From contig JAUSGG010000243.1 of the NCBI GenBank assembly GCA_030649165.1, forward strand, positions 1 through 61,303: a DNA stretch of 61,303 bases, in the 5' to 3' direction. The notes beneath the pieces are model-generated. The model was not told the origin of the DNA, did not search any database, and saw nothing but the letters and a program-made list of their open reading frames with translations. Position numbers and translations under genes: made by a program. Positions 42,494 to 61,303 of the stretch are shown here, piece by piece. This DNA comes from Armatimonadota bacterium (GTDB lineage: Bacteria; Armatimonadota; UBA5829; JAUSEB01). Positions within the stretch are counted from its first letter, which is position 1, and every line of letters begins with the position of its first letter.

Positions 42494-44392
42494 ATGGCGA
42501 AAGCAAAGAAAGTCATCGTGCTCGGCTTCGACGGCGCGACCGTCGAGTTCGTGCAGCATTACATGAAGCAGGGCAGACTCCCCAACTACCGCAAACTCAT
42601 GAAGATGGGCTCGTTCATGAGGAACTGCCTCTGCCCCTACCCGACCATCACGCCGCCCAACTGGACAACAATCGCTACCGGCGCGCGCATCGGGACCCAC
42701 GGCGTGACCTGTTTCTGGCAGCACCACCCCGGCGACCCGCTGGACAAATTCCGCACCGGTTTCGACTCGCGCGACAACCGCGCCGAGTACTTCTGGGCCG
42801 CGGCAGGGCGCGCCGGCAAGCGCAGCATCGTCTTCAATTTCCCCTCCACCTGGCCGCCCGTGAAGTTCCCCGGAATACAGGTGGACGGATCGGACCTCAC
42901 CGTCGGCAACCGCGCCATGCTGCGGCGGTACGTTATCTACTCCAGCCCGGCGGTCGCCGCGCCGACGCGGGAAGTGGACGGCTGGCTCTATCAGCCGGAC
43001 CAGAGCGACGAGCTGGCGCAGTTGAAACCCGCGGCGGGGTGGCGTAATATCAAACTCCGACCTGACGCGCTGGAGATGGAGCTGGAGTTCAAGGACGACG
43101 GCCCCAAGTCTTACGTCGGCCACCCCGATTTCCCCGACCGCGCGTTCATAGCTCCGGTGAATCGATACCTGCTGATCGACAAGTCGCGCGGGAAGAACTA
43201 TGACCGGGTCAGGCTGTTCTCCGACAAGGACGGGCGAAAGCTATTGGGCGAATCAACGAGCCGAAAGGTCTGGAGCGACTGGATTCAGGACCGGTTCGAG
43301 CTTACGGATGGCGACGAGAAGGTCTGGTACAAGATTCGCATTCTGAGCCTCGATCCCGGCGGAAAGTTCGTGCGGACGCTCGTTACCAGCCTGATGGTCC
43401 CCAAGGGCTGGAGCCGTCCCGCGACCCTCGGGCAGGAGCTATTGCGCGAAGTCGGCCCGCACTTCCCAGCCACAGCGTGGATATTCCGGGAAGACGAAAC
43501 CGGCCTGGAGATCGAGAGCGAGATGCACGATTGGTACGGCCGGGCCATCAATTACCTCGCGGAGAAAGACCCGTGGGACGCCATCTTCATGCACGCCCAC
43601 GTGATCGATTTCGCTAACCACTGGTGGATCGACAGGGTCGAGCCGGAGTCGATCGACTGGCCGGGGAACGACAAATACGACAAACTGCTGCGCAAGGCTT
43701 ACGAGATAACAGACCGCCTCCTCGGCCAGGTGATGGAGCTTGCGGACGAGGACACGCTGTTCGTCCTGGTTTCCGACCACGGCAGCACCACTCGCAGTCA
43801 ACAAATCCCGCCGTTCGGCAACCCACACCGCACGTCGGGCAAGATACTGGAGGACGCGGGGCTGCTGGTCTACGACGACGGCGATCCGACCGGAGCGCGC
43901 AAGATCGACTGGAGCAAAACAAAGGCCGCCTGCCAGCGCGCCGGCTACGTCTACGTCAACCTCAAGGGACGCGACCCGGACGGGATTGTCGAACCCGGCG
44001 AGGAATACGAGAAGGTGCGCACGCAGGTGATCAACCTGTTCTACGACTACACCGACCCAGCCACAGGCAAGAAGCCGATCACGCTCGCGATACGGAACGA
44101 ACACGCCGCCCTGCTCGGCCTTTACGGCGACCGCATCGGCGACATCGTCTATGCGCTGGAGCCGGAGTTCGAGCATGCTCACGGCCAGGAGCTTCCCACC
44201 GCCAAGTTCGGCAGAGGCTCACAAACGTCGCTGCTGATAATGGCCGGCCCAGGCATCAGGAAAAACCACACAGTCGCCCGCCCAACCGCCCTGACGGACA
44301 TAGTCCCAACAATCTGCCACCTGACCGGCTTCCCCGTGCCGAAGGAGTGTGAGGGCGGGGTGATATACCAGGCGTTGGAGGAGGCGCCGTAA
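42494..44392 (+). CDS. Type I phosphodiesterase / nucleotide pyrophosphatase-family protein
   Basis: 632 residues of the alkaline-phosphatase superfamily. Metal and nucleophile residues: VIVLGFDGAT (Asp), PYPTITPPNWTTIATG (nucleophile Thr), HAHVIDFANHWW (Asp and His), LVSDHGST (Asp-His) and the C-terminal TDIVPTICHLTGFP with GVIYQALEE. No signal peptide is obvious. Such enzymes cleave phosphodiester or phosphate bonds; the substrate is unknown. AGGAGGA lies before the ATG. The last ~95 bp are repeated at 44991-45095 and 45839-45938. Confidence 0.88.
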   Translation: MAKAKKVIVLGFDGATVEFVQHYMKQGRLPNYRKLMKMGSFMRNCLCPYPTITPPNWTTIATGARIGTHGVTCFWQHHPGDPLDKFRTGFDSRDNRAEYFWAAAGRAGKRSIVFNFPSTWPPVKFPGIQVDGSDLTVGNRAMLRRYVIYSSPAVAAPTREVDGWLYQPDQSDELAQLKPAAGWRNIKLRPDALEMELEFKDDGPKSYVGHPDFPDRAFIAPVNRYLLIDKSRGKNYDRVRLFSDKDGRKLLGESTSRKVWSDWIQDRFELTDGDEKVWYKIRILSLDPGGKFVRTLVTSLMVPKGWSRPATLGQELLREVGPHFPATAWIFREDETGLEIESEMHDWYGRAINYLAEKDPWDAIFMHAHVIDFANHWWIDRVEPESIDWPGNDKYDKLLRKAYEITDRLLGQVMELADEDTLFVLVSDHGSTTRSQQIPPFGNPHRTSGKILEDAGLLVYDDGDPTGARKIDWSKTKAACQRAGYVYVNLKGRDPDGIVEPGEEYEKVRTQVINLFYDYTDPATGKKPITLAIRNEHAALLGLYGDRIGDIVYALEPEFEHAHGQELPTAKFGRGSQTSLLIMAGPGIRKNHTVARPTALTDIVPTICHLTGFPVPKECEGGVIYQALEEAP

Positions 44393-48051: not shown

Positions 48052-50313
48052 TCACCTCTTCTCATAACGCCCTACGGCAACCACCGCCCCCGTCCGATGC
48101 GCCCAATCCTCAATATAATCCCGAGCGTAAAACCTCAGCCCGCTTCCCCCGTGCCCTTGCCCGGTCACAATGTCCACCTTCCCGTCCCCGTTCCAGTCAA
48201 CCGCGTCGGCGCCGGAGATGGTCATTACGGTCCACGGTCGGATGATCTCCACGCCGCCGTGGGCGAATTGCGGCTCTTGATTTGGGCCGCCTGAGCCGGT
48301 GTTGCGGTAGAGCCTTACGACGTGCTCGAACTCGCAGGCGATCAGGTCCTTCTTGCCGTCGCCGTCCCAATCCACGTACGAGCCGACGTTGGGACGCATG
48401 TAATCGAGCATTTGGGTCCCGCCGGGGCCGACGCCGATCCACTTCGGATAAGCCAATACCGGCTCCTCGTCCGTCCCGATGTTCTTGAAGAACAAGAGTC
48501 CGCAATCCTGAGCCGGGTTGCCGGGGTTGAGGTGCGGCCAGTCGTGGTACAGACTCGGCTTCCCCTCGCCGCCCATTCCCATGATCAGGTCCTTGCGCCC
48601 GTCGTTGTCCCAATCGCAGACGAGCGCGCTGCACCAGTGCGTCCCGCTGATCGGCTTGCCGTTGGCCTCCAACTGCTTCCCCTCACCGAACCTGGGGCTT
48701 TCGTCGGTCCCTTCGTTCAGATAGAGCACGACCTCGCCCGTCCTGTTGGTGATGACCAGATCCTTCTTCCCGTCGTTGTTCCAGTCAACGACGAACGATC
48801 TGGCGTCAGCCCCCACATCGCTCAGGATGCGCACGCCGTCGGCGAAGATAGGCCACTTGTTGCTCGACGTGTTGCGGAACCAAAAGACGCTCCCGCCGGA
48901 GTTGCTGACCAGCAGGTCGGTCTTGCCGTCGTTGTTCCAATCGACCGCGTGGACCGTATTCTGCCGCGCCCCCTCGCAAATCTGAAACTCCTCGGTGTAC
49001 GGCGCGCCGTTGTCCGCGTTTCGCTCCTCGAACTTCGGCTCGGTCGGCGTCCCCACGTTCTTATACATCCGCGCGTAAAGCCTTCGCTCCCCCGGCCCGC
49101 ATTGGGTCTCCCAGACGCAGCCGGTCACGTATTCCAGCATGCCGTCACCGTCGAAATCCGCCACCTTGACGCCGCAGTGACCGCCACGCGAAGACGGCAG
49201 CTCGACGGCGGTCTTGAAGACGGGATTCGTCCGCGTGCCGACGTTTTCGATGTAATACAGCGGCGGGCCTTGAGCGGTCATAAACAGGTCCAAATCGCCG
49301 TCGCCGTCGAAATCCACGCAATCGACCCTGGTCTCGCTGAACTTCTCAATCTCGCTCGGCAGATCGAGCGCAACGGGGTCCGCCAGCCGGATATTCGCGA
49401 CGTCGTCGCCGCCAAGGTTCCGGTAGAAGTCGACTCCCCCCCTTCGCCCGATCAGAATGTCCTTCTTCCCGTCGCCGTCCCAGTCCACAGCGGTGACCGC
49501 GGCAAACCAGTTGTTGCCCAGCGGCTTGCCGGACTCCGTGAGCAGCCGGCCCCGATTCGCGAACGTCAACTGCCCGCCCGGCTGGGTTACATTTTCGAAG
49601 ACGACCACGTGCCCGAAATCGGGGCTGTCGCAGCAGCTTACGAACAGGTCGGGATTCCCGTTGCCGTTCCAGTCGTCGAAGGTGATGGTCGCCCAGCTTC
49701 GATGCGTGCCCTCGCCCATCGGGAGGGTGAAAACGCTCCCGCCCGAGGTCAACTTGCCCCGATAGACGAACCTGTTCCCGCCGACGTTCTCGTAGCAGTA
49801 GATGAACGGCTCGGTAGTCACCTTGAAGAGGTCCGGGGCCCCGTCGCCGTCGAAGTCGCGGAAGCAATCCATGTGGCTCGCGCCGATCTCCCGGCGGGAG
49901 TACTCGACCCGAAAATAGTCGCCGTCACCCACCAAACCCGGGTAGCGACGCGGCTTGCCGAGTCCCGATTCAACCGTATCGAAGTACACCGCATACCCTG
50001 CGACGTTCTCATCCGGCAGGACGAAGTTGAGGGTCACGTAATCGACGCCGTAATATGGGTCGATCCGGTGTGGCAGGAGATACTTCTCGTAGCCCTCTCT
50101 GGCCTCGTCGAATACCTCCGGCTTGCCCGAGGCGTTGTACGCGACGACCTCCACCGTATGCTCGTCGAAGGCGCCGTTCTCGCCCATCGATCGAAGCGCA
50201 TCAACAAAGTCGATATTGACCGCCGCCGGCGAATCGGACCTCGTCCTCCCCCGGCAGTCCACCGTCATCAATATGCGGTAACCGTTCGGAGATGTCCACT
50301 CATGCCTCATCAC
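48052..50313 (-). CDS. FG-GAP/VCBS repeat protein, third paralogue, signal peptide lost
   Basis: 753 residues. Starts MMRHEWTSPNGYRILMTVDC without any signal peptide, unlike its two paralogues. An N-terminal ~150-residue beta domain is followed by ten Asp-rich calcium loops of the DWDGDGKKDL type, typical of FG-GAP beta-propellers, ending HGGSGLRFYARDYIEDW. The bases where a signal peptide would be encoded are GTTAGTGAGGTATGAGTGAT repeats. It may therefore be cytoplasmic, non-functional, or start elsewhere. Last gene of the ABC-transporter operon. Confidence 0.85.
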   Translation of the reverse strand: MMRHEWTSPNGYRILMTVDCRGRTRSDSPAAVNIDFVDALRSMGENGAFDEHTVEVVAYNASGKPEVFDEAREGYEKYLLPHRIDPYYGVDYVTLNFVLPDENVAGYAVYFDTVESGLGKPRRYPGLVGDGDYFRVEYSRREIGASHMDCFRDFDGDGAPDLFKVTTEPFIYCYENVGGNRFVYRGKLTSGGSVFTLPMGEGTHRSWATITFDDWNGNGNPDLFVSCCDSPDFGHVVVFENVTQPGGQLTFANRGRLLTESGKPLGNNWFAAVTAVDWDGDGKKDILIGRRGGVDFYRNLGGDDVANIRLADPVALDLPSEIEKFSETRVDCVDFDGDGDLDLFMTAQGPPLYYIENVGTRTNPVFKTAVELPSSRGGHCGVKVADFDGDGMLEYVTGCVWETQCGPGERRLYARMYKNVGTPTEPKFEERNADNGAPYTEEFQICEGARQNTVHAVDWNNDGKTDLLVSNSGGSVFWFRNTSSNKWPIFADGVRILSDVGADARSFVVDWNNDGKKDLVITNRTGEVVLYLNEGTDESPRFGEGKQLEANGKPISGTHWCSALVCDWDNDGRKDLIMGMGGEGKPSLYHDWPHLNPGNPAQDCGLLFFKNIGTDEEPVLAYPKWIGVGPGGTQMLDYMRPNVGSYVDWDGDGKKDLIACEFEHVVRLYRNTGSGGPNQEPQFAHGGVEIIRPWTVMTISGADAVDWNGDGKVDIVTGQGHGGSGLRFYARDYIEDWAHRTGAVVAVGRYEKR

Positions 50314-50361
50314 TCATACCTCACTAACCACGAACCACGAACCACGAACCACTCATCTTCA
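50314..50361. repeat. GTGGTTCGTGG repeats between FG-GAP genes
   Basis: On the minus strand: TGAAGATGAGTGGTTCGTGG, further TTCGTGG units, then TTAGTGAGGTATGAGTGATGAGG. Begins at the stop of the upstream gene and runs into the next start. Confidence 0.85.
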
Positions 50362-52716
50362 CTTCCGCTCGAACTTCTCCACCGTCACTACCGGAAACGT
50401 CTGATTGACCGTATCCTCGATATAATCCCTCTCGTAAAACCGCAGTCCGGTCCCGCCGTGGCCCTGGCCGGTGATGATGTCCAGGTCGCCGTCCCCGTTC
50501 CAATCGAGCGCGTCCACGCTTGAGATCATCTGCACGGTCCAGGGCTCGACGAGCTTGATCCCTTCCTCGGGCCACGCGAACTCAGGCTCGATGTTTTTCC
50601 CGCCCGGCCCCGTGTTGGGATTCACGCGGATCGAGTTCTCGAACTCGCAGTAGACGAAGTCCTTCTTCCCATCACCGTCCCAGTCGACGTATGAGCCCAG
50701 GTTCGGCCTGACATAATCAACCGGCTTCTGGTTTCCCACAAATCCGAACAGTATCCACTTCGGGTAAGCCAGGACAGGATCGGCGTCCGTTCCGACATTG
50801 CGATAGAACAGGAAGCCTTTGTCTCTTGCGGGGTTGTCCGTCAGCGGCGGCCAGTCGGTCGTCGGCCCATAAATAGCCTCGCCTCCCATGCCGTAGATCA
50901 GGTCCTTGCGACCGTCGTTGTCCCAATCGCAGACGAGCACGCTGTTCCGCCCCGTTCCGCCGATGGGCTTACCATTGAGCGTCAGTCGCATGCCCTTCCC
51001 CAGCTTCGGCGCCCCGGCGGCTTTCTCGTCAATCCCCTCATTAACGAACAGCGTAATCGCCCCCTGGCCGTTCGCAATGAGCAAATCCTCGCGTCCGTCG
51101 TTGTTCCAATCGCACGTGTCGAGCTTTGCAAAGGGGCTCACGTCGCGCAGAATCTGCCGGCTCGCCGCGAACACCGGAGACCGCGCGTCGGTCTCATTGC
51201 GGAAGTAATAGACAACACCCGCGTCCGTCGATGCCACGAGGTCCGTCTTGCCGTCGGCGTTCCAATCGACCGCGCGCGCGCCGCTTTGGCGCGCGGCATC
51301 GCATATCTGGAACTGCTCCGTGAAAAGCGACCCGGTTTCGGCAATTCTCGCCTCGAACTTCGGCTCAGTCTTCGTGCCGATGTTCTTGAACGTCCGCGCA
51401 TACAGCCTCGGCTGGCCCGCGCCGGGAGGCTGCTCCCAGAGATTGCTGACGGCGTAGTCCAGCAGTCCATCGCGATCGAAATCGGCGACCTTCACGCCCA
51501 GGTGCCCTCCCACGCCCGCGCCCAATTCCAAAGCCTTCGCCAGTTTCGGCTGGGTCTTCGTGCCGGTGTTCCTGTAGAGGAACAAGCGCCCGTCAAACGT
51601 CGCCGCGAACAGATCGAGATCGCCGTCGCCGTCGATATCCGCGCAGTCCAGGCGCGGCGACCACAGCTCGAGCTTCTGGCCCTCAGCTTCAAGCATCTGG
51701 GCGTCGGCCAGCTTCATATTGGCGACCTTCCTGTCCGAGCCGATGTTCTTGTGGAACTCGACTGCCTTCTTCCGCGCGACCAGCAGGTCTTTCTTGCCGT
51801 CGCCATCCCAATCTACGATGTTCACTGTCCCAAACCAGCCGTCACCCAACCCCTGTCCGGACTCCGTGAGCAGCCGCCCGCGATTAGTGAACGTTAGTGG
51901 CCCGCCCCTGGAGGTCGTGTTCTCGAACCGCACGAGCTGTTCGTGTTCCGGTCCGTCGTTGAACGTGGCGAAGAGGTCCTGGTCTCCGTCGCCGTCCCAA
52001 TCGTCGAATTCGACAATCGGCCAAGATCGATGGTTGTCGTTCATTGGGAAGACGAACAAGCTCCCGCCCGACGTCATCCTGCCCCGCTCGACGAAGCGGT
52101 TGCCACCCGCGTTCTCGTAGTAATACATGAACGGCTCGTTGGTGCACTTGATCAGATCCAGATCGCCGTCGCCGTCGAAATCACAGAAGTCGTCTTTCTG
52201 GCTGGGCCCAATCTCCCGGCGCCCGTATGCTTCTCTAAAGTAGTCGCCGTCGCCGACCAGTCCCTGGTACCGCCGGGGCTTACCAAGGCGCGATTCCTTC
52301 GTGTCGAAATAGACTGCGTAAGTCGCGCAGTTCTCGGTGTGGACGACAAAGTTCAGCGTGACGTAGTCCACGCCGAAGTACCTATCGATCCGGCACGGAA
52401 GCAGATACTTCTCGTAACCCGCCCGCGCCGCGTCGAATACTACCGGCTTCCCGGACGCGTCGTATCCGACGACCTCAATGGTATGCTGGTCGAAGGCTCC
52501 TTTGGCCTTGAGACTGGTCAAAGTCTGCCTGAAATCGAGATTGACCGACGCGGGCGAGTTGGTCCGCTTCATTCCGCGGCAGTCCACTGTCAGGACTATC
52601 CGGTGGCGGTCCGGCGAAACCCACTCCGGTTTCGAAGAAGGACCCGCCTCAACCGGCAACAAAGAACAGACGAGCAAACCCATTGCCGCACAAAAACACT
52701 TCAGCACATTAAACAC
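50359..52716 (-). CDS. Secreted FG-GAP/VCBS repeat protein, second paralogue
   Basis: 785 residues. GTG start with GGAGGT 7 nt upstream, then a signal peptide (VLKCFCAAMGLLVCSLLPVEA). N-terminal domain PEWVSPDRHRIVLTVDCRG ... YFGVDYVTLNFVV, then ten DxDxDGxxDL calcium loops (for example DWDGDGDQDLF, DIDGDGDLDLF, DWNNDGREDLL) of a beta-propeller, and the shared C-terminus GLRFYERDYIEDTVNQTFPVVTVEKFERK. FG-GAP propellers bind ligands outside the cell. Its place behind a sugar importer suggests glycan binding (inference). Confidence 0.9.
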   Translation of the reverse strand: MFNVLKCFCAAMGLLVCSLLPVEAGPSSKPEWVSPDRHRIVLTVDCRGMKRTNSPASVNLDFRQTLTSLKAKGAFDQHTIEVVGYDASGKPVVFDAARAGYEKYLLPCRIDRYFGVDYVTLNFVVHTENCATYAVYFDTKESRLGKPRRYQGLVGDGDYFREAYGRREIGPSQKDDFCDFDGDGDLDLIKCTNEPFMYYYENAGGNRFVERGRMTSGGSLFVFPMNDNHRSWPIVEFDDWDGDGDQDLFATFNDGPEHEQLVRFENTTSRGGPLTFTNRGRLLTESGQGLGDGWFGTVNIVDWDGDGKKDLLVARKKAVEFHKNIGSDRKVANMKLADAQMLEAEGQKLELWSPRLDCADIDGDGDLDLFAATFDGRLFLYRNTGTKTQPKLAKALELGAGVGGHLGVKVADFDRDGLLDYAVSNLWEQPPGAGQPRLYARTFKNIGTKTEPKFEARIAETGSLFTEQFQICDAARQSGARAVDWNADGKTDLVASTDAGVVYYFRNETDARSPVFAASRQILRDVSPFAKLDTCDWNNDGREDLLIANGQGAITLFVNEGIDEKAAGAPKLGKGMRLTLNGKPIGGTGRNSVLVCDWDNDGRKDLIYGMGGEAIYGPTTDWPPLTDNPARDKGFLFYRNVGTDADPVLAYPKWILFGFVGNQKPVDYVRPNLGSYVDWDGDGKKDFVYCEFENSIRVNPNTGPGGKNIEPEFAWPEEGIKLVEPWTVQMISSVDALDWNGDGDLDIITGQGHGGTGLRFYERDYIEDTVNQTFPVVTVEKFERK

Positions 52717-52738
52717 CCCACTTACCTCCAGCAAACGA

Positions 52739-52860
52739 CACCATCACGAACCACGAACCACTTAATCCCCATCCGTGGTTATCCGTGCATATCCGTGTTC
52801 ATCTGTGTTCTTCTCTGAGCCAGTTCCCACCGGCGTTCATCTGCGTTCTTCCGTGAATGC
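52739..52860. repeat. CCACGAACCAC, ATCCGTG and TTCATCTGCG repeats
   Basis: Left: CACGAACCACGAACCAC. Middle: ATCCGTGGTTATCCGTGCAT and further TATCCGTG/TTCATCTGTG words. Right: GCGTTCATCTGCGTTC. Ends exactly at the stop of the gene at 52861. Confidence 0.85.
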
Positions 52861-55185
52861 CTACTTCCGCTCAAATCGCTCGACCGTCACGACCGGGAAC
52901 GTATCGTTCGCCAGGTCCTCTATATAATCTCGCTCATAAAACCTAAGCCCGCTGCCGCCGTGGCCCTGGCCGGTCAGGATGTCGATATCGCCGTCGCCGT
53001 TGAAGTCGAGCGCATCGACCCCCGAGATCGTCTGCAGCGTCCATGCGATCAGCAGAGGCTTGCCATCGACCGGCCAGGAGAACTCCGGCGCCGCATTCGC
53101 ACTGCCCGGACCCGTATTCCTGTACAGATGGATCGCGTTCTCGAACTCGCAGGCAATGAAGTCTTTCTTCCCATCGCCGTCCCAGTCCACGTATGAGCCG
53201 ACGTTCGGCCTTGTATACTGGATCGGTCTGGAGTTTCCCGCAACCCCGGTCTGGACCCAGCTCGGGTACGCCAGCTCCGGCTCGGCGTCGGTCCCGACGT
53301 TCCTGTAGAAAAGGAATCCTCGCTCCGTCTCGATATTGCCGGTCCAGTGCGGCCAATCGTGCTCCCCGCTGGGGTTGAGTCCTCCGGCCATACCGAAGAT
53401 AATGTCTTTCCTGCCGTCGTTGTCCCAATCGCAGACGAGCGCGCTGCACCAGGTAGTCCCGTCTATGGGCTTGCCGTTGGCATAAATCTGCTTAGCCGGC
53501 CCCAGAACCGGGGCGGCGTCCGTGCCCTGGTTCAGATATATTTCGACCTTTCCATCGAAGTGCGTGACCAGCAGGTCTTTCTTGCCGTCGTTGTTCCAGT
53601 CGCACACGCAGGTCCGCGGCGCGCCACCCCCTGGTTCGAGCAGCCTCTCGCCATCGACAAACGACGGATAGAGGTTATTGCCGGTATTTCGGAAGTAATA
53701 GATGATCTGACTCTCGGTCCCGGCGATCAGGTCTTTCGCGCCGTCATTGTCCCAATCCACCGCTCGCACGGTATTCTGCCGGCCCGCCTCGCACATTTGG
53801 AACTGCTCGGTGTAGGGCGCGCCGTGGTAGGCGTCGCGCTCCTCGAACTCCGGCTTCGTCTTGCTGCCGACGTTCTTGTACAAGCGCGCGTAGAACCGGC
53901 GGTCTTCCGGCTCGGCCTTCCGCTCCCACACGCTGCCCGTGACGTAATCGAGAAGACCGTCTCCGTCGAAATCGGCGACTTTGATCCCGCCGTGGCCGCC
54001 GACGCGGTTCGGCAGGCTGACACCGGCCTTGAACACGGGGCTGCTTCGAGTCCCGATGTTTTCGTAGAGAAAAACCGCCTCGCCCTGCGTCGATGAGATC
54101 AGATCGAGGTCGCCGTCGGCGTCGATGTCAGCGCATTCAGCTCGCGCGGCCCTCAGCTCAATGTCCTTGCCGTCGGCCTTGATATGCTCGGAATCGGCAA
54201 ATCGCATGTCCTTCTTGTCCGCGCTCACGTTTCTGAACATCTCGATCTGGCGGTCCCTGCCGATTATGACATCCTTCTTGCCGTCGTTGTCCCAGTCGAC
54301 TATCGTCACGGCGGGGAACCAGCCGCCGCCCATCGACTTGCCGGTTTGCGTCCGCGGGGGGCTGCGCTTCGCAAAGGTGATCTGCCCGCCCTTCGCCGTC
54401 ACGTTCTCGAAGTACGCGATCTCCTTACCATCCGGCCCATCGCCGAAACCGGAGAACAGGTCCTGATCGCCGTCGCCGTCCCAATCGTGGAAAGTGATGA
54501 CGGCCCAGCTCCGGTGAGCGGGGCTGTGCGGCAGCATGAAAAGGCTCCCGCCGGAGGTCATCTTCCCTCGTTCGACAAAGCGATTGCCGCCCACGTTTTC
54601 ATAGCAGTAGATGAAAGGCTCCGTCGTTATCTCGAACAGGTCCAGATCGCCGTCGCCGTCGATGTCGCAGAAGCTGTCCATGTGGCTCGCGCCGATCTCT
54701 CGTCTCGTGTAACCGATCCTGAAATAATCGCCGTCGCCGACGAGCCCGGTGTACCGTTGCGGCTTGCCCGGCTTCGACTCTTTCGTATCGAAGTACACGC
54801 CGTATTTCGTGGTCGCTGCGTTCGGCACGACGAAGTGAACCGTCACATAATCCACGCCATAATACTTCTCGATGTAGAACGGCAGGAGGTACTTCTCGTA
54901 GCCTTTGCGGGATGCGTCGAATATCCTCGGTTTGCCTGACATGTCGTAGCCCACGACCTCGACCGTGCTCTCATCGAACGAGCCTTTGGCGCCCGTGTTT
55001 CGCAGAGCTTGTGGGAAATTCAGGTTGACAGTCGCCGGGGAATTAGACCGATTGACCCCGCGAGAGTCAACTGTGAGGAGAATCCTGTGGCGGTCGGGCG
55101 AAGTCCACTGTGGAGCTGCGCCAATAGCGCCCGACGCTGCAATTGCCACCATCAGCGCCGCGCTTAGCGGGAGGGAGAGCCTCAT
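52861..55185 (-). CDS. Secreted FG-GAP/VCBS repeat protein, first paralogue
   Basis: 774 residues from ATG 55183-55185 (AGGAAC upstream); the longer open frame upstream runs through repeat DNA. Signal peptide LSLPLSAALMVAIAASGAIGA, mature start APQWTSPDRHRILLTVDSRG. Ten calcium loops (DIDGDGDLDLF, DWDGDGDQDLF, DWDNDGKKDVI, DIDADGDLDLI, DFDGDGLLDYV and others) and C-terminus FYERDYIEDLANDTFPVVTVERFERK. The first of three tandem paralogues after the ABC permease genes. Confidence 0.9.
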   Translation of the reverse strand: MRLSLPLSAALMVAIAASGAIGAAPQWTSPDRHRILLTVDSRGVNRSNSPATVNLNFPQALRNTGAKGSFDESTVEVVGYDMSGKPRIFDASRKGYEKYLLPFYIEKYYGVDYVTVHFVVPNAATTKYGVYFDTKESKPGKPQRYTGLVGDGDYFRIGYTRREIGASHMDSFCDIDGDGDLDLFEITTEPFIYCYENVGGNRFVERGKMTSGGSLFMLPHSPAHRSWAVITFHDWDGDGDQDLFSGFGDGPDGKEIAYFENVTAKGGQITFAKRSPPRTQTGKSMGGGWFPAVTIVDWDNDGKKDVIIGRDRQIEMFRNVSADKKDMRFADSEHIKADGKDIELRAARAECADIDADGDLDLISSTQGEAVFLYENIGTRSSPVFKAGVSLPNRVGGHGGIKVADFDGDGLLDYVTGSVWERKAEPEDRRFYARLYKNVGSKTKPEFEERDAYHGAPYTEQFQMCEAGRQNTVRAVDWDNDGAKDLIAGTESQIIYYFRNTGNNLYPSFVDGERLLEPGGGAPRTCVCDWNNDGKKDLLVTHFDGKVEIYLNQGTDAAPVLGPAKQIYANGKPIDGTTWCSALVCDWDNDGRKDIIFGMAGGLNPSGEHDWPHWTGNIETERGFLFYRNVGTDAEPELAYPSWVQTGVAGNSRPIQYTRPNVGSYVDWDGDGKKDFIACEFENAIHLYRNTGPGSANAAPEFSWPVDGKPLLIAWTLQTISGVDALDFNGDGDIDILTGQGHGGSGLRFYERDYIEDLANDTFPVVTVERFERK

Positions 55186-55264
55186 CCTTATGCAGTTCCT
55201 TTCCTGAAGGTTGCTGCCTACAGAATAGCGCTTACCTCGGCAATTCGGCAATGGCTTGGCAATA

Positions 55265-55340
55265 AAACCAATCGGACTGATCGGACCCATCCGACCGATC
55301 CGACGGAACCAACAACTAACAACCATCAACCAACAAGCGC
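55265..55340. repeat. GATCGG and GTTGGTTGATGG repeats containing the permease stop
   Basis: On the minus strand GTTGGTTGATGGTTGTTAGT follows the last permease codons and provides its TGA stop (55326-55328). Then come GGATCGGTCGGATGGGTCCG-type words. Confidence 0.85.
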
Positions 55341-56183
55341 TCCCGCCGTCAGCCCCTTCACGATTTGCCGCTGGAGGAGCACGAAGAACAATGCCATCGG
55401 GATCATAACGATCACCAGCCCGGCTGCGATGCCGGTCTGATTTGTCGCCAGCGCGCCCTGGAGCATTCGCACTCCGACCGGCAGCGTCCTCGCATGTTCG
55501 GAGCTTGTGAGGAAAAACGCCATCATGAACTCGTTCCAGACCGCCAGAGTGTGGAACGTCGCCAGCGTGATCAGCGGGGCCTTCGACAGCGGGACGATGA
55601 CGTGACGGAACACCTGCCAGACGCTCGCGCCGTCCACCACGGCGGCGTCTTCATACTCGCTCGGTATCCTCTCCATGAACGCCCTCAGGAAGAAGGTGTT
55701 CCAGGGTATGCCGCCCGCGGCGTATATCAATACCAGCGCCCAGATGCTGTCGTGGAGGTGAATCCTTGTCAGGAACACAACGAGCGGGAAGAAGCGGACC
55801 GAGTCGGGCACGAGGAAACCGAACATAACATAGGTCCAGAAGAAGGTTTTCAGCGATCCGAAGTTCAGCCGGGAAAAGGCAAACGCGCAGAACATGGACA
55901 GCGTCAGCGCGAGGACGAGCGAGATGAAAGTAACGAGCAGGCTGTTTTTCACGCACGGCTGGAGGTACTTCCAGACGACCGCGTAGTTCTCCCAGCTCGC
56001 GTGAAGCGGCAGGGAGAAGGGGGATGCGTATAACTCCGCGTCTTTCTTCAGCGACGTGAACAGCATGAAAACCAGCGGATATCCGGCCACTACCGCCCAC
56101 GCAATGAGGGTTCCGTAGATCACGATCCAACCGGGAATCAAGCGAACGACTCGCCAGGCGCGCCAAATCACTCTGATTTTCAT
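55326..56183 (-). CDS. Carbohydrate ABC transporter permease (MalG-like)
   Basis: 285 residues, six membrane helices. The EAA-type loop is EYEDAAVVDGASVWQVFRHVIVPLSKAPLITL. Forms the inner-membrane channel with the permease encoded upstream (4-bp overlap). The ATPase is not in the window. C-terminus LTAGALVG and stop lie in a repeat. Confidence 0.93.
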   Translation of the reverse strand: MKIRVIWRAWRVVRLIPGWIVIYGTLIAWAVVAGYPLVFMLFTSLKKDAELYASPFSLPLHASWENYAVVWKYLQPCVKNSLLVTFISLVLALTLSMFCAFAFSRLNFGSLKTFFWTYVMFGFLVPDSVRFFPLVVFLTRIHLHDSIWALVLIYAAGGIPWNTFFLRAFMERIPSEYEDAAVVDGASVWQVFRHVIVPLSKAPLITLATFHTLAVWNEFMMAFFLTSSEHARTLPVGVRMLQGALATNQTGIAAGLVIVMIPMALFFVLLQRQIVKGLTAGALVG

Positions 56184-57088
56184 AGCGCTTTGCTCTCATG
56201 GCGCTCAGACCGCGCCAAATATCGCACAAAAAGCGTCAAAAACACTGCGATAAAGAAGTGAAAAACAGCAATAGCGCTTCCATAACCGATTCTATACTTC
56301 TCAAAAGCTTGCCAAACTGCGTAGGAAGTGAGCGTTTCTGTCCTGTGCAGCGGCCCCCCATTTGTAAGTATGAACGGAAAGACAAACGCCGATAACGCAT
56401 CCGTCACACCAAGCACGACCGCCATGAGGTACACTCCGCGCACGCTCGGAAGGGTAATATGGACGAGCTGCTGCCGCCAGTTTGCGCCATCGATGGCCGC
56501 GGCTTCGAACAGCGACTCCGGAATCTCCGATATGGCCGCCATGAATATGATGACGAAGAACCCCACCCCCGCGTAGACGCCCGGCACGGCCACGGCCCAC
56601 TGCACAACGCCGTCACCGCTCAGCCACTTGAGCCCCTCCACGTGAACGAGGCCGAGTATCGCGTTCAGCAGCCCGTTCTGATGATAGATGAAGGTCCACA
56701 TCAACGCCATGGTCGCCGCTCCGACCAGGCCGGGCACGAAGTACACCAGGCGGAAGAACCCGGCGACACGCCGAGTTCTGCTCAACACAAAAGCCAGAGT
56801 CAGGGCAATCGGTAGTTGGAAAACCAGTATCAGCAGCAGCACGCGCAGATTGTTCGCCAGTCCGATCCAGACCAGTTTATCGTGGAGTACCTCGGCAAAA
56901 TTGGCCAGGCCGTTGAAATGCCCTACGCGGCCCGTCCGGTCCTGCAGCGAATAGAAAACAGACTGCGCGGTCGGATACAGGATCAGGGCGGAGTAAAGCG
57001 CCAGCCCCGGCGACAGAAACAGCAGCGCCCATCTCACCCGCGCTCGATGCCGCCGCCTCGCCCCGATGCCGTTCTTGCCGCTGCTCAC
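56180..57088 (-). CDS. Carbohydrate ABC transporter permease (MalF-like)
   Basis: 302 residues with six membrane helices; ABC contact loop SLFEAAAIDGANWRQQLVHITLPSVRGVYLM. ATG overlaps the stop of the binding-protein gene (ATGA), and its own stop overlaps the next permease. Partner of the gene at 55326. Confidence 0.93.
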   Translation of the reverse strand: MSSGKNGIGARRRHRARVRWALLFLSPGLALYSALILYPTAQSVFYSLQDRTGRVGHFNGLANFAEVLHDKLVWIGLANNLRVLLLILVFQLPIALTLAFVLSRTRRVAGFFRLVYFVPGLVGAATMALMWTFIYHQNGLLNAILGLVHVEGLKWLSGDGVVQWAVAVPGVYAGVGFFVIIFMAAISEIPESLFEAAAIDGANWRQQLVHITLPSVRGVYLMAVVLGVTDALSAFVFPFILTNGGPLHRTETLTSYAVWQAFEKYRIGYGSAIAVFHFFIAVFLTLFVRYLARSERHESKAL

Positions 57089-58341
57089 GACCTCAAGACC
57101 TCCGCGAAGAACTTCAGCGCCCGATCGGCGCTCGCGCCCTCGTTCAGGCTGGCGAACATATCCGGCAGCGCGCGGACGGACACCTGTTCGTTGAAGAAGC
57201 CGGGCTTGTTGGGCAGGGTGAACACGCTGGTCGCCAGGTCCCTCGACTTGATGAACTTGTAGAGCAGCGGACCCGCCATTTGCTCGGTGACGTCCACCTT
57301 TATCCCCTCCGGCGAATGCGCGTCGGAGACGAACCTCCGCGCGGCCTCGTCGCTGACCATCAGTTCGAGGAACTTCAGCGCGTACTTCAGCTTCTCCTTA
57401 TCGTCTTTGAGGCTGCTGTTCAACGCGGTCTTGGTGGCGACCCAGGCGCGAATCGGCCTCACCCCACCGTACGCGGGAAAGGGGGTGAACTCCACGTGGT
57501 TGCGAAGCCGCGGATCGACCGCCGGGGCGGTGATCTCGTTGATCAGCGTCCACGCGCCGTTCGCGTAGTGGCCCAGTTGGTCTCTCTGGAACAGCGACGC
57601 GGCGCCGCCGAACTGCAACTCGATGTCGTTATCCGGCACGAAGCCGCCGTCAACGATTTGCTTCACCGCCGAAACAGCGCGCCGGAACGGCTCCGATTCC
57701 CACTCCTCGCGAGCGATTGCCTCCACGGCGTCAGGATGGCCGAAGAGTATCGAGAAGAAGACCGCGTGGCCTGCTATGCTGAGGCTCGTCAGGGAGATTC
57801 CCTTCCTCTTGAAGGCTTCCCCAAGCTCCAGGTATTCCTCGAAAGTCTTCGGGATGCCTTTACCCACTTTCTCAAGGACGCGCGTGTTCCAGATGCAGGG
57901 AACGTACGAGTATTCCGTCGGGAGTTGATACGTGCGGCCATCGTAAGTGCAGGCGGCGAGGGCGGCCGGGTAGAACCGGTCGCGCCTCTCGTTGACGAAA
58001 TCCGTGAGGTCGAGGCAGTAGGCAGCCCGAACGTGATCGTAGGTAGTGTCGTGGAGAATATCCGGCCCCGCGCCCGCCGCCAGCTCAGCCATCAGCTTCC
58101 GACCGTTGTCCTGAGCGCCGCCGGCGACCTCGGTTGCCTGGAAATCCACCTGAGGGTATTTCAATCGGAACTGGCTGCACAGCCACGTGGTGACGGGCGC
58201 GTGGGCGTCCAGGTCGGTCCAATGGGTGTTGTAGGTCAGCCTGAGTTTGCCGGACGAGCGTCTGCCGCAGCCGGAAACCCCGGAAAGAGCCAGCGCCGCG
58301 CCGGCGCTCAACGCGCCCGTGATGAAGTCTCTGCGTTTCAG
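57085..58341 (-). CDS. Sugar ABC transporter substrate-binding lipoprotein with Tat signal, CTG start
   Basis: 418 residues from the CTG at 58339-58341. AGGAGG lies 8 nt upstream, and the CTG opens a twin-arginine signal (KRRDFITGALSAGAALALSG) ending in a lipobox Cys (VSGC). Starting at the next TTG (58311) would remove the RR motif. The mature part is a cluster B sugar-binding protein (LTYNTHWTDLDAHAP, GPDILHDTTYDHVRAAYCLDLTDFVNERRDRFYPAALAACTYDGRTYQLPTEYS, ANGAWTLINE). First gene of the operon, with promoter at 58376-58404. Confidence 0.9.
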   Translation of the reverse strand: MKRRDFITGALSAGAALALSGVSGCGRRSSGKLRLTYNTHWTDLDAHAPVTTWLCSQFRLKYPQVDFQATEVAGGAQDNGRKLMAELAAGAGPDILHDTTYDHVRAAYCLDLTDFVNERRDRFYPAALAACTYDGRTYQLPTEYSYVPCIWNTRVLEKVGKGIPKTFEEYLELGEAFKRKGISLTSLSIAGHAVFFSILFGHPDAVEAIAREEWESEPFRRAVSAVKQIVDGGFVPDNDIELQFGGAASLFQRDQLGHYANGAWTLINEITAPAVDPRLRNHVEFTPFPAYGGVRPIRAWVATKTALNSSLKDDKEKLKYALKFLELMVSDEAARRFVSDAHSPEGIKVDVTEQMAGPLLYKFIKSRDLATSVFTLPNKPGFFNEQVSVRALPDMFASLNEGASADRALKFFAEVLRS

Positions 58342-58519: not shown

Positions 58520-61303
58520 TCAGACGTCGTAGACCTTCAACACCTCGTCCCCGTAATGGTTGATGACCTTCACGGCGATCTTGCCGGTGGACGGTGGGTC
58601 GAATGCGCGGCTGACGGTGGAGTACAGGGACGCCCAGGCCACTTCGTCTATCTCAGCCTTGAGGGCGCGTTTGAGCTTGTCGTACGGCTCGTCAGCGCCG
58701 GTGAAGTAGGCGTGGCGGACGAAGAAGCTCTCCTCGTTGTAGTCCGTGTCGATGAACCAGCAGGCGATGTCATCGGTGGTGTTCGAGCGGATTTCGCCGG
58801 TCGTGGGATCATAGACATCCAGTCCGTTGATTTTCACTACGACCTTATCCCCCTCCCCGTTTCGGGGAGGGCTGGGGAGGGGTCTTCCGGCATCTGAGTC
58901 CGCAGCCACCCGTCTTATCTCGATATCCGGCTCGCCGAAGACCATGAACAGGTTGCCCGCGCCGGTCTTCTTGAGCAGGTCCTCGCCCATCATAAGGTCG
59001 GCGTTCATGCGGGCAATGAGCACATTCAGGTTGCCGTATTGCTTGGCCTCGTCCGTCACGGTAGGCTCGAACGCGAAGCCGCAAATGATAAGCGTGTCGA
59101 ACCCGATGCCCTTTACAGCCTCCTTCGCTGCTTCCCTGATGAGTTCCGGGCCGACGGTTCCGAATTCCGGTCCTATGCACACCGCAACACGCTTGGTGCA
59201 TCCTGAGCCTGTCGAAGGATCGCCTTCGGTGTATTCGCCGGCGGCGTGCAGCCACTCGCCTGCAAATGTCTCCAGCCGGTCGAACTTGAGCCGTTCATTC
59301 TTGATGGTGTTCTGGACCCCGGCTTTACGGAGGTTGTCGATGATAGTCAAAGCAAACTGCCCGCCGCCCATCACGGTCATCTTGACGCCCGCTATGCCCT
59401 CTTCCTTCAGCTTGATCTTCTCATCCACGCTGAACCGGCGGTGTGGCGACAGGCTCTCCACCGTGAACGGTCCGGTGACGCGGATTCGCTTGTTGTCCTC
59501 GTAAGGCTGGTCGTAGAGGAGTTCCGTGTCGGCATTGCGCGCGATGGAAGCGTCGATCTCCTTCTGCCGCTCGCGCCTCAGCTTCCACCACTTTTCGAGC
59601 AAACGCGCCGCCTCTCCGGCAGAGGGACCACCTGCCCCCTCTCCCTGTGGGGGAGGGTTGGGGAGGGGTCGTCGCGGTTTCTCGTCTCCCTCTGCGACAC
59701 AAGAACCGCCTGCCCCCTCTCCCCTGGCGGGAGAGGGTTGGGGTGAGGGGGGAAGATCACGCGGTATCTCCCACTCCTCCCAGGTCTTCCCCAGCAGCTT
59801 GTTCAGTTTCTCTCGAACCGGCTCCAGCTTCTCCTGCCATTTGGTGTGAATCGTATCTATTTCCTCGTTGTTGGCGATGGCCTTGAGGGTGACATGTGGC
59901 ACGCGTTTGTAGACGAAACCCTTCTTGATATCGTCCAGCGTCTTGTAGGCCGGTGGAATCTTGCCGGTGATCTCGGCTTCCTTGACTACGCCTTCGGCGG
60001 AGTCCGAGAGCGTGTAGTAAGGATACTTCGCCGCCATCAGGCGTGTGCGGGCAAGGGCAAGGGATACCCGGCTGGTGTCAATTGTGATCCAACGTCGGGC
60101 CCAGTTTTCGGAGACATACGCGGTTGTACCTCCACCACAGGTAGGGTCTAGGACGAGATCGCCGGGGTCTGTCGACATCAGCATGCAGCGTTCGATCACT
60201 TTGTTCGCTGTCTGGACTACGTATACGCGGTCATCGGTTTGGGATCCAGTTCCGGTATCATCCCACTGGCTGTTCAGAAGCATAACGGGGAAATCAAACA
60301 GCATCCGCTTGTAGCGTAATGTGTCTCCGACAGCAGCGAGTCGGCCAGCAGCCGCCAGTTTCTGTAGGCCACTAGAAGACGTGGACCAGTACCGGCCTTT
60401 CGGTGTAAAACGGCGACCCTGGAAATCGAATGCTGGACTATCATAGTAGTGAGAAGAAGTCAGATCACTTAGGCCAAATAGCTGCCAGTCAGAAGGCAAT
60501 GCCTGTGGAGCTTGCTTTTCTTGCTGATTAAGCCTTCGCCAACTGCCGTCCGGGAGCTCCGCGCATCCGAACGTATCGCTCGATACCGAGTCGAATGTCT
60601 TTGCGATATGGAGTTGGCGATACTTCAACTGTGATATGTCTTTGCCATACCACAAGATGAAATCGGTTGCCGTTGGCAGATAGAGTGCCGTCAGATTGCT
60701 TGTCTTGCGGAAGGGTATGAGTGACACGAAATTCTCGTCGCCAAAGACCTCGTCGAGAAGGCACCGCACACGGTGGACATTCTCATCGCTGATCTGCACG
60801 AACACACTGCCGGTTTCCGTCAGCAGTTCTCTCGCTACCACCAGCCGGTCCCGCAGATAGGCAAGGTACGAGTGAATACCGAGTTGCCAAGTATCGCGAA
60901 ATGCCTTGATCTGCTCGGGCTGCCGGGTGGCATCGACCGCGCTGCCGTCCTTCACATCGCGCTTGCGGGTGGATACCTGCCAATTGGAGCCGAACTTGAT
61001 GCCGTAGGGCGGGTCAATGTAGATCATCTGTACCTTGCCCTTGAGCCCCTCTTTCTCGGCCAGGGAGGTCATCACCAGCAGCGAGTCGCCTAGGATCATC
61101 CGGTTGGACCAGTTCTGCTCGTGGCGGTAGAAGTCCACCATATCCTCGAAGGAGATGCCGTTGAAGTCGGCAAAGAGCGATGCCTGCTGGGGCACGCCCT
61201 TCTTCGCCTCCGCCCGCACCTGCTCCACGATGGCCTGCGGCTGTATCTTCTCCTGGATGTAGATGGGCACCACCGGCACGGCCAGGTCCTGGCTGTCCTG
61301 CTC
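58520..61303 (-). CDS. Site-specific DNA methyltransferase (type III Mod-like), 5' end outside the window
   Basis: At least 927 residues, open to the window edge. Beta-class order: DPPY motif IV (MIYIDPPYGIKFGSNW), a target-recognition region, then motif I DPTCGGGTTAYVSENW. Such enzymes methylate adenine-N6 (or cytosine-N4), usually in restriction-modification systems; a partner nuclease or helicase would lie outside. The C-terminal third contains four repeat-derived peptides in frame: PSPARGEGAG, PNPPPQGEGAG, PSPPRNGEG and DPSTGSGCTK. The rest of the frame is intact, so the gene may still function. Confidence 0.88.
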   Translation of the reverse strand, partial: EQDSQDLAVPVVPIYIQEKIQPQAIVEQVRAEAKKGVPQQASLFADFNGISFEDMVDFYRHEQNWSNRMILGDSLLVMTSLAEKEGLKGKVQMIYIDPPYGIKFGSNWQVSTRKRDVKDGSAVDATRQPEQIKAFRDTWQLGIHSYLAYLRDRLVVARELLTETGSVFVQISDENVHRVRCLLDEVFGDENFVSLIPFRKTSNLTALYLPTATDFILWYGKDISQLKYRQLHIAKTFDSVSSDTFGCAELPDGSWRRLNQQEKQAPQALPSDWQLFGLSDLTSSHYYDSPAFDFQGRRFTPKGRYWSTSSSGLQKLAAAGRLAAVGDTLRYKRMLFDFPVMLLNSQWDDTGTGSQTDDRVYVVQTANKVIERCMLMSTDPGDLVLDPTCGGGTTAYVSENWARRWITIDTSRVSLALARTRLMAAKYPYYTLSDSAEGVVKEAEITGKIPPAYKTLDDIKKGFVYKRVPHVTLKAIANNEEIDTIHTKWQEKLEPVREKLNKLLGKTWEEWEIPRDLPPSPQPSPARGEGAGGSCVAEGDEKPRRPLPNPPPQGEGAGGPSAGEAARLLEKWWKLRRERQKEIDASIARNADTELLYDQPYEDNKRIRVTGPFTVESLSPHRRFSVDEKIKLKEEGIAGVKMTVMGGGQFALTIIDNLRKAGVQNTIKNERLKFDRLETFAGEWLHAAGEYTEGDPSTGSGCTKRVAVCIGPEFGTVGPELIREAAKEAVKGIGFDTLIICGFAFEPTVTDEAKQYGNLNVLIARMNADLMMGEDLLKKTGAGNLFMVFGEPDIEIRRVAADSDAGRPLPSPPRNGEGDKVVVKINGLDVYDPTTGEIRSNTTDDIACWFIDTDYNEESFFVRHAYFTGADEPYDKLKRALKAEIDEVAWASLYSTVSRAFDPPSTGKIAVKVINHYGDEVLKVYDV
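58847..58887. repeat. CCCTCCCC/GGGGAGGG repeat inside the methyltransferase gene
   Basis: Hairpin CCCTCCCCG-TTT-CGGGGAGGG plus GGGGAGGGGTC; encodes PLPSPPRNGEGD in frame. Same family as 27721-27792. Confidence 0.9.
59197..59224. repeat. GATCCTTCGACAGGCTCAGG repeat inside the methyltransferase gene
   Basis: On the minus strand the word runs from GATCCTTCGACAGG to TCAGGATGCA and encodes DPSTGSGC in frame. This word is, from memory, a common intergenic repeat in several bacterial genomes. Confidence 0.75.
59632..59751. repeat. Two CCCCTCTCCC/GGGAGAGGG repeats in tandem inside the methyltransferase gene
   Basis: Copies at 59632-59670 and 59711-59751, each preceded by ACC(A/G)CCTGCC. They encode PNPPPQGEGAGG and PSPQPSPARGEGAGG, separated by a short unique stretch. 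Confidence 0.9.

Follow-up and report, generated by a model that had tools for sequence, protein, structure and literature searches.

What does a bacterium do with three large calcium-loop propeller proteins whose genes stand directly behind those of a sugar importer? The question is raised by a 61,303-nucleotide stretch of DNA, here called the window, from an Armatimonadota bacterium (GenBank assembly GCA_030649165.1, contig JAUSGG010000243.1). This stretch makes up contig C132 in an assembly of 5.48 Mb and 99% completeness, and the closest relatives of this genome with named records are Armatimonadota metagenome-assembled genomes (MAGs). Read on the minus strand from 58341 to 48052, the locus encodes a substrate-binding protein (SBP), permease 1, permease 2 and three propellers, prop1, prop2 and prop3. 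An earlier, sequence-only reading saw in it a secreted glycan-capture system in which lectin-like propellers feed a dedicated ATP-binding cassette (ABC) importer. Our analysis indicates that the locus is probably part of a pathway for consuming glycans, and not a pure sugar-catching system, because relatives of the propellers sit with, or are fused to, enzymes that cut pectin-type polysaccharides. The best explanation, to which we assign a probability of about one half, is a polysaccharide-utilisation locus that would work like the YesW/YesOPQ/YesX pathway of Bacillus subtilis. The propeller family is rare, and the proposed pathway is of a known kind. Most FG-GAP/VCBS propellers, an abundant group, have no assigned function. 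The present family is clearly delimited; fusions connect it with pectate-lyase-like domains, and co-occurrence connects it with one importer. Because of these ties its function is directly testable on pectic and sulfated glycans. The features of the locus are as follows.

57085..58341, minus strand: SBP of a CUT1-type sugar importer, 418 amino acids (aa); Pfam SBP_bac_8 (9.5e-16) and SBP_bac_1 (3.4e-13)
56180..57088, minus strand: importer permease 1, UgpA/MalF-like, 302 aa; BPD_transp_1 (2.7e-13); UgpA model 5.5e-23, below its cut-off
55326..56183, minus strand: importer permease 2, UgpE/MalG-like, 285 aa; BPD_transp_1 (1.4e-21); GlcU model 3.6e-32, below its cut-off
52861..55329, minus strand: prop1, predicted secreted ten-calcium-loop propeller; FG-GAP_3 (1.1e-47); ten loops; hydrophobic leader
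54691..55116, minus strand: beta-rich domain at the N-terminus of prop1 (142 aa, counted from the start of the mature protein)
50359..52734, minus strand: prop2, predicted secreted ten-calcium-loop propeller; FG-GAP_3 (1.1e-45); ten loops; leader
48052..50313, minus strand: prop3, ten-calcium-loop propeller without a signal peptide; FG-GAP_3 (2.1e-50); ten loops; leaderless start

Gene calls and Pfam agree with the earlier description of a binding protein, two permeases and three propellers on one strand, and the propeller lengths first given as ~750-785 residues hold with the likely starts. The probable start of prop1 is ATG 55185 (774 aa), with AGGAAAGG upstream and a signal peptide, and that of prop2 is GTG 52716 (785 aa), with GGAGG upstream; prop3 has 753 aa, or 752 if it begins at ATG 50310. 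Each protein contains exactly ten DxDxDG-type loops, and the layout, noticed before as identical, is nearly the same in all three; prop1 shuffled 1000 times had 0.09 such loops on average and never more than 2. Loop 2 of prop3 is degenerate (DWNGNG). Residues conserved outside the loops include the RPN, GQGH and WER motifs, and EFE is conserved as well. All three are FG-GAP proteins, scoring 154-170 bits against PF13517 (cut-off 26.9). In their DxDxDG loops and FG-GAP_3 matches of ~1e-45 or better they resemble the calcium-blade superfamily of PVL, integrin, AUDH and RGL11, and differ from its other members in the ten-loop layout and in a conserved N-terminal domain without a fold match. The VCBS supercluster is described as containing both sugar binders (PVL) and enzymes, namely the rhamnogalacturonan lyase RGL11 and AUDH (PMC8023676, PMC3123361).

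The predicted structure of prop1 (mature protein, AF2) has a pLDDT of 86.8 and a pTM of 0.86. Its halves, at ~136-432 and ~436-735, each align with five-bladed GH43 propellers (VIA, Z 15.5-16.9), and VIA rows spanning both halves reach Z 18.1; judged from these alignment ranges, the model suggests two five-bladed propellers in one chain. The five-bladed propellers of GH43, GH32 and GH130 are a further comparison, the usual armatimonad partner gene described below being GH130-like; unlike members of these families, the window propellers have no match to them listed by Pfam. We do not take the GH43 similarity as proof of a hydrolase, a shared fold showing no function. Among the best Foldseek matches are PVL and the Agrocybe lectins (15-18% identity), and also CRTAC1; for the comparison with the seven-bladed PVL type the TM score is 0.22 by query and 0.36 by target at 18% identity. 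The sequence-only reading had asked for the structure of the N-terminal domain. The model obtained (A2) has a pLDDT of 78.7 and matches nothing by Foldseek at E<=0.001, while the best VIA hit has Z 4.8 and the best PDB profile hit E 1.3. Pfam on 20 family members returned five families in one or two members each, the best at E 0.048, and none for prop1; a known carbohydrate-binding module (CBM) was therefore rejected for this domain. A further domain, C-terminal to the propellers, occurs in three of the four C80 propellers and in L088, L025, L026, L027, L028, L030, L033 and L037, and is common to the 908-918 aa proteins L025:12638 and L026:14951.

The family to which these proteins belong comprises 29 genes at 21 loci in 11 genomes. 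At E<=1e-60, 4 of 291 Armatimonadota genomes have homologues, as do 3 of 392 genomes sampled from the planctomycete phylum to which G061, a genome with a named phycisphaeral record, belongs; the best two or three candidates were scored per genome in these broad searches. Named Planctomycetota and one Acidobacteria MAG have them too. The window genome has eight: three at the window locus, four on contig C80 and one on C60. The tree of the family has 28 rows, L022 being left out. A 1468 aa protein at L038:4120-8526, with ~319 bits against prop1, lies between the family and other FG-GAP proteins and is a possible outgroup. A search of the open-access literature found no description of this family, and a search of a plasmid collection found no match to prop1.

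The earlier expectation that the propellers are secreted fits prop1 and prop2, which have hydrophobic leaders, and fails for prop3. The latter lacks a signal peptide, with an in-frame stop just upstream and a GAGG resembling a ribosome-binding site before the leaderless start, and is therefore probably cytoplasmic. Its nearest orthologues, L023:7026 and L026:9998, are also leaderless and have AGGAGG or GAGG before the start. In a leader census of 26 family members (L035, L022 and a partial L024 copy set aside), 23 have a leader and 3 do not; 20 were scored by script, and L027, L028 and C80_18180, which the script had mis-anchored, were read by eye. The three leaderless proteins, from three genomes, form one subclade with support of 100/99. 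Far from decaying, prop3 is better conserved than either other copy in the window, with 79% identity to its sister-genome orthologue against 63-64% for the other two, and a dN of 0.14, a dS of 1.59 and a dN/dS of about 0.09; for prop1, prop2 and two other pairs dS was saturated and gave no value. Prop3 thus belongs to a conserved leaderless subclade and is under purifying selection; a conserved member that is not exported hints specifically at catalysis.

The association with glycan-degrading enzymes comes from the relatives. The search for partner genes was run in six frames on 20 of the 21 loci, all but the contig of L022, because greedy choice of open reading frames erred in places, notably at L097/L098. 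PL2-like partners are found at seven of the 20 (L025, L026, L029, L034, L036, L097, L098), in L025 and L026 at a distance of 3-4 kb and on the other strand. Four planctomycete-type proteins (L034, L036, L029, L098) have the PL2-like domain fused to the propeller, with 60-69 bits against PF06917 (cut-off 26.6), and separate PL2-like genes lie directly downstream, one more each in L034, L036 and L098 and two in L097. In two Pfam runs, 7 of 7 and 2 of 2 PL2-like proteins passed the PF06917 cut-off, with ~120 of the 491 model positions matched. A profile of these proteins aligns with the solved PL2 lyases 6ojk and 2v8i at E about 1e-19, over motifs GEH, HEF and RH. By residue count the motifs coincide with the PL2 metal ligands His109, Glu130 and His172 and the catalytic Arg171, as these are numbered in PMC10992409; L026 lacks the Glu of HEF, and the separate copy in L036 lacks RH. 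The likeness to PL2 pectate lyases such as YePL2A is thus that of the fused or adjacent domain, the window propellers themselves having no such domain.

A GH130-like gene stands beside the propeller at six of the 20 loci (C80, at all four copies; L027, L028, L030, L031, L033). These proteins are weak in Pfam, with one of the four examined, that of L028, over the cut-off. Over 18 kb at L086/L087 (G000:C80:14513-32795), propeller and GH130-like genes follow each other in turn on one strand, four of each kind. L025 and L026 also have genes for heparinase II/III and sulfatases, and GH20 and GH29 lie near L034. Among the remaining scanned loci, two have an importer, and five have no GH130-like gene, PL2-like gene or importer; for some loci this absence is weak, because several contigs are under 12 kb.

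The importer itself, an SBP with two BPD_transp_1 permeases, is of the CUT1 type by Pfam. The SBP apparently starts at CTG 58341, a rare start codon, directly behind AGGAGG, and has a twin-arginine-like leader and a lipobox-like VSGC, both read by eye; its match to NgcE (TIGR03851) is weak and below the cut-off. The operon has no ATPase gene. A single OB_MalK-type ATPase was found in the window genome, on contig C9, and we infer that it serves the importer. Homologues of the SBP (E<=1e-35) occur in 3 of the 291 Armatimonadota genomes, G000, G001 and G012, exactly the three in which the window's propeller clade occurs (7 rows, support 100/100). G007, the fourth propeller-bearing Armatimonadota genome, has neither SBP nor clade, and at the thresholds used neither was found in the other 288 searched. 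The three genomes come from two families and are related, so the co-occurrence is suggestive and not an independent sample. In G012 the importer orthologue (L103:5718-18239) belongs to a glycan locus that also has GH2, GH4, DUF4838 and sulfatase genes; the 20 kb covered there contain no propeller.

The reading as a capture system that feeds a dedicated ABC importer is only partly supported. When all 11 carrier genomes were searched for BPD_transp_1, a permease was near a propeller at 2 of the 21 loci, the window and L023, which are orthologues of each other in two genera of a single family. The orthology is also supported by phosphodiesterase-like genes near both loci, at window 42494-44392 and L023:13087-14979, which are very similar by eye. 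Elsewhere the nearest permeases are ~118 kb (G007, C8), ~32 kb (G007, C3) and ~171 kb (G061) away, and the other propeller contigs list none. Since just these two loci have a permease nearby, the propellers are mostly unlinked to transporters, an outcome that the sequence-only reading had itself named as one that would refute a capture system. What stands of that proposal is the association with glycans, through PL2-like, GH130-like, heparinase II/III and sulfatase genes and the co-occurrence with the SBP.

Among known systems, the rhamnogalacturonan (yes) locus of B. subtilis offers the closest comparison. Both systems combine calcium-loop VCBS-type propellers with a CUT1-type SBP and two permeases whose ATPase is not in the operon and, taking YesW as the exported and YesX as the intracellular lyase, both would have exported plus unexported propeller proteins. 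YesO is reported to bind a pectin oligosaccharide released by the YesW/YesX lyases (PMC7596534), and within the yesOPQRSTUVWXYZ locus the YesOPQ importer is described as most likely dependent on the shared MsmX ATPase (PMC5730181). Unlike the single eight-bladed propellers of the yes locus, the window proteins have ten loops and, from the model, probably two five-bladed propellers; unlike its PL11 lyases, they have no RGL11_C match. PL11 membership was rejected by sequence, no PF21348 (RGL11_C) being found in Pfam to E 0.1 or on C132 at E<=0.001, and the comparison is for this reason one of working alike and not of membership.

Under this explanation, prop1 and prop2 would act extracellularly on a complex glycan, such as one that contains uronate. 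The SBP and permeases would import the released oligosaccharides with the help of a MalK/MsmX-type ATPase that is shared and encoded at another place in the genome; inside the cell, prop3 would act on the imported oligosaccharides. The propellers themselves may cut the glycan, as lyases or glycosidases, the alternative being that they bind or present it. Catalysis is the least certain step; we rate it slightly above pure binding, chiefly on account of the unexported copy and its conservation. Tentatively, and with rather less confidence than in the pathway, we suggest that the family could be a class of polysaccharide lyases or glycosidases not described before, with an N-terminal domain and two five-bladed calcium propellers in one chain. 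Exported and cytoplasmic forms would serve an importer that shares its ATPase, and in planctomycetes the chain would be fused to a PL2 lyase.

Several observations weigh against a Yes-like, catalytic pathway. The propellers yielded no catalytic residue and no known enzyme domain, and ten calcium loops are unexpected for a cytoplasmic protein. The window propellers are not PL11 by sequence; hhalign gives PL11 a probability of 63%, over a stretch with three calcium blades only, and PL11 is absent among the 50 Foldseek and VIA matches listed, which does not exclude a PL11 fold. Where it treats YesWX, PMC7596534 calls them secreted, contrary to the intracellular YesX of the comparison above. The importer is linked to propellers at so few loci, in G012 the two are on different contigs, and in G001 the closest relative of prop1 by identity is on another contig (L024). 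Fusion to a lyase domain would also be expected of a binding module.

This last point leads to the strongest rival, that the propellers are non-catalytic, lectin- or CBM-like modules, which would either keep polysaccharide at hand for partner enzymes or raise the concentration of oligosaccharides near the importer. The presence of PVL and the Agrocybe lectins among the best Foldseek matches, the PL2-like fusion and GH130-like adjacency typical of such modules, and the leaders of two window copies all speak for it. Yet a capture lectin does not explain a leaderless prop3 with orthologues in three genomes under strong purifying selection, and the importer is absent from 19 of the 21 loci. A binding module would accord with the lyase fusion, while the conserved unexported copy is more easily explained by an enzyme, and we regard pure binding as the less likely reading. 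A second rival, that importer and propellers are chance neighbours in one bacterial family, the importer serving another sugar and the propellers a separate degradation pathway, is improbable. For it speak the linkage at only two loci of 21, both orthologous, the opposite-strand gene between importer and propellers in G001 and their separation in G012; against it speaks the exact co-occurrence of the SBP and the window's propeller clade in three genomes of two families, related as these are.

Two profile matches that could have suggested other functions for the propellers were rejected. That to FusH, a fusidic acid esterase, is far below its cut-off. That to TcdB_midN is just over the cut-off in prop1 and over it in prop3, and is read as a calcium-loop cross-match because its best stretches span only 18 and 43 residues, at calcium loops.

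The proposal that the six genes are transcribed from one promoter is not upheld. Upstream of the SBP a scan for sigma-70 promoters gave no promoter-like site, and its total of 3 sites is no excess over the shuffle mean of 2.4. With the likely starts, gaps of ~140-145 bp each separate permease 2 from prop1 and prop1 from prop2, and in the sister genome G001 an opposite-strand flavodoxin gene (L023:3591-4109) sits between importer and propellers. Terminator-like sites numbered 18 against a shuffle mean of 9.1, among them a weak, uninterpretable stem on the minus strand (55284-55268) that lies between permease 2 and prop1. Short GGTTCGTGGTTCGTGGTT-type repeats take up the intervals from one propeller gene to the next (50314-50355 and 52735-52780). 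Beyond the importer, at 58520-61303, the window encodes a DNA methylase (N6_N4_Mtase) with proline/glycine-rich PSPQPSPARGEGAGG-type insertions within its reading frame.

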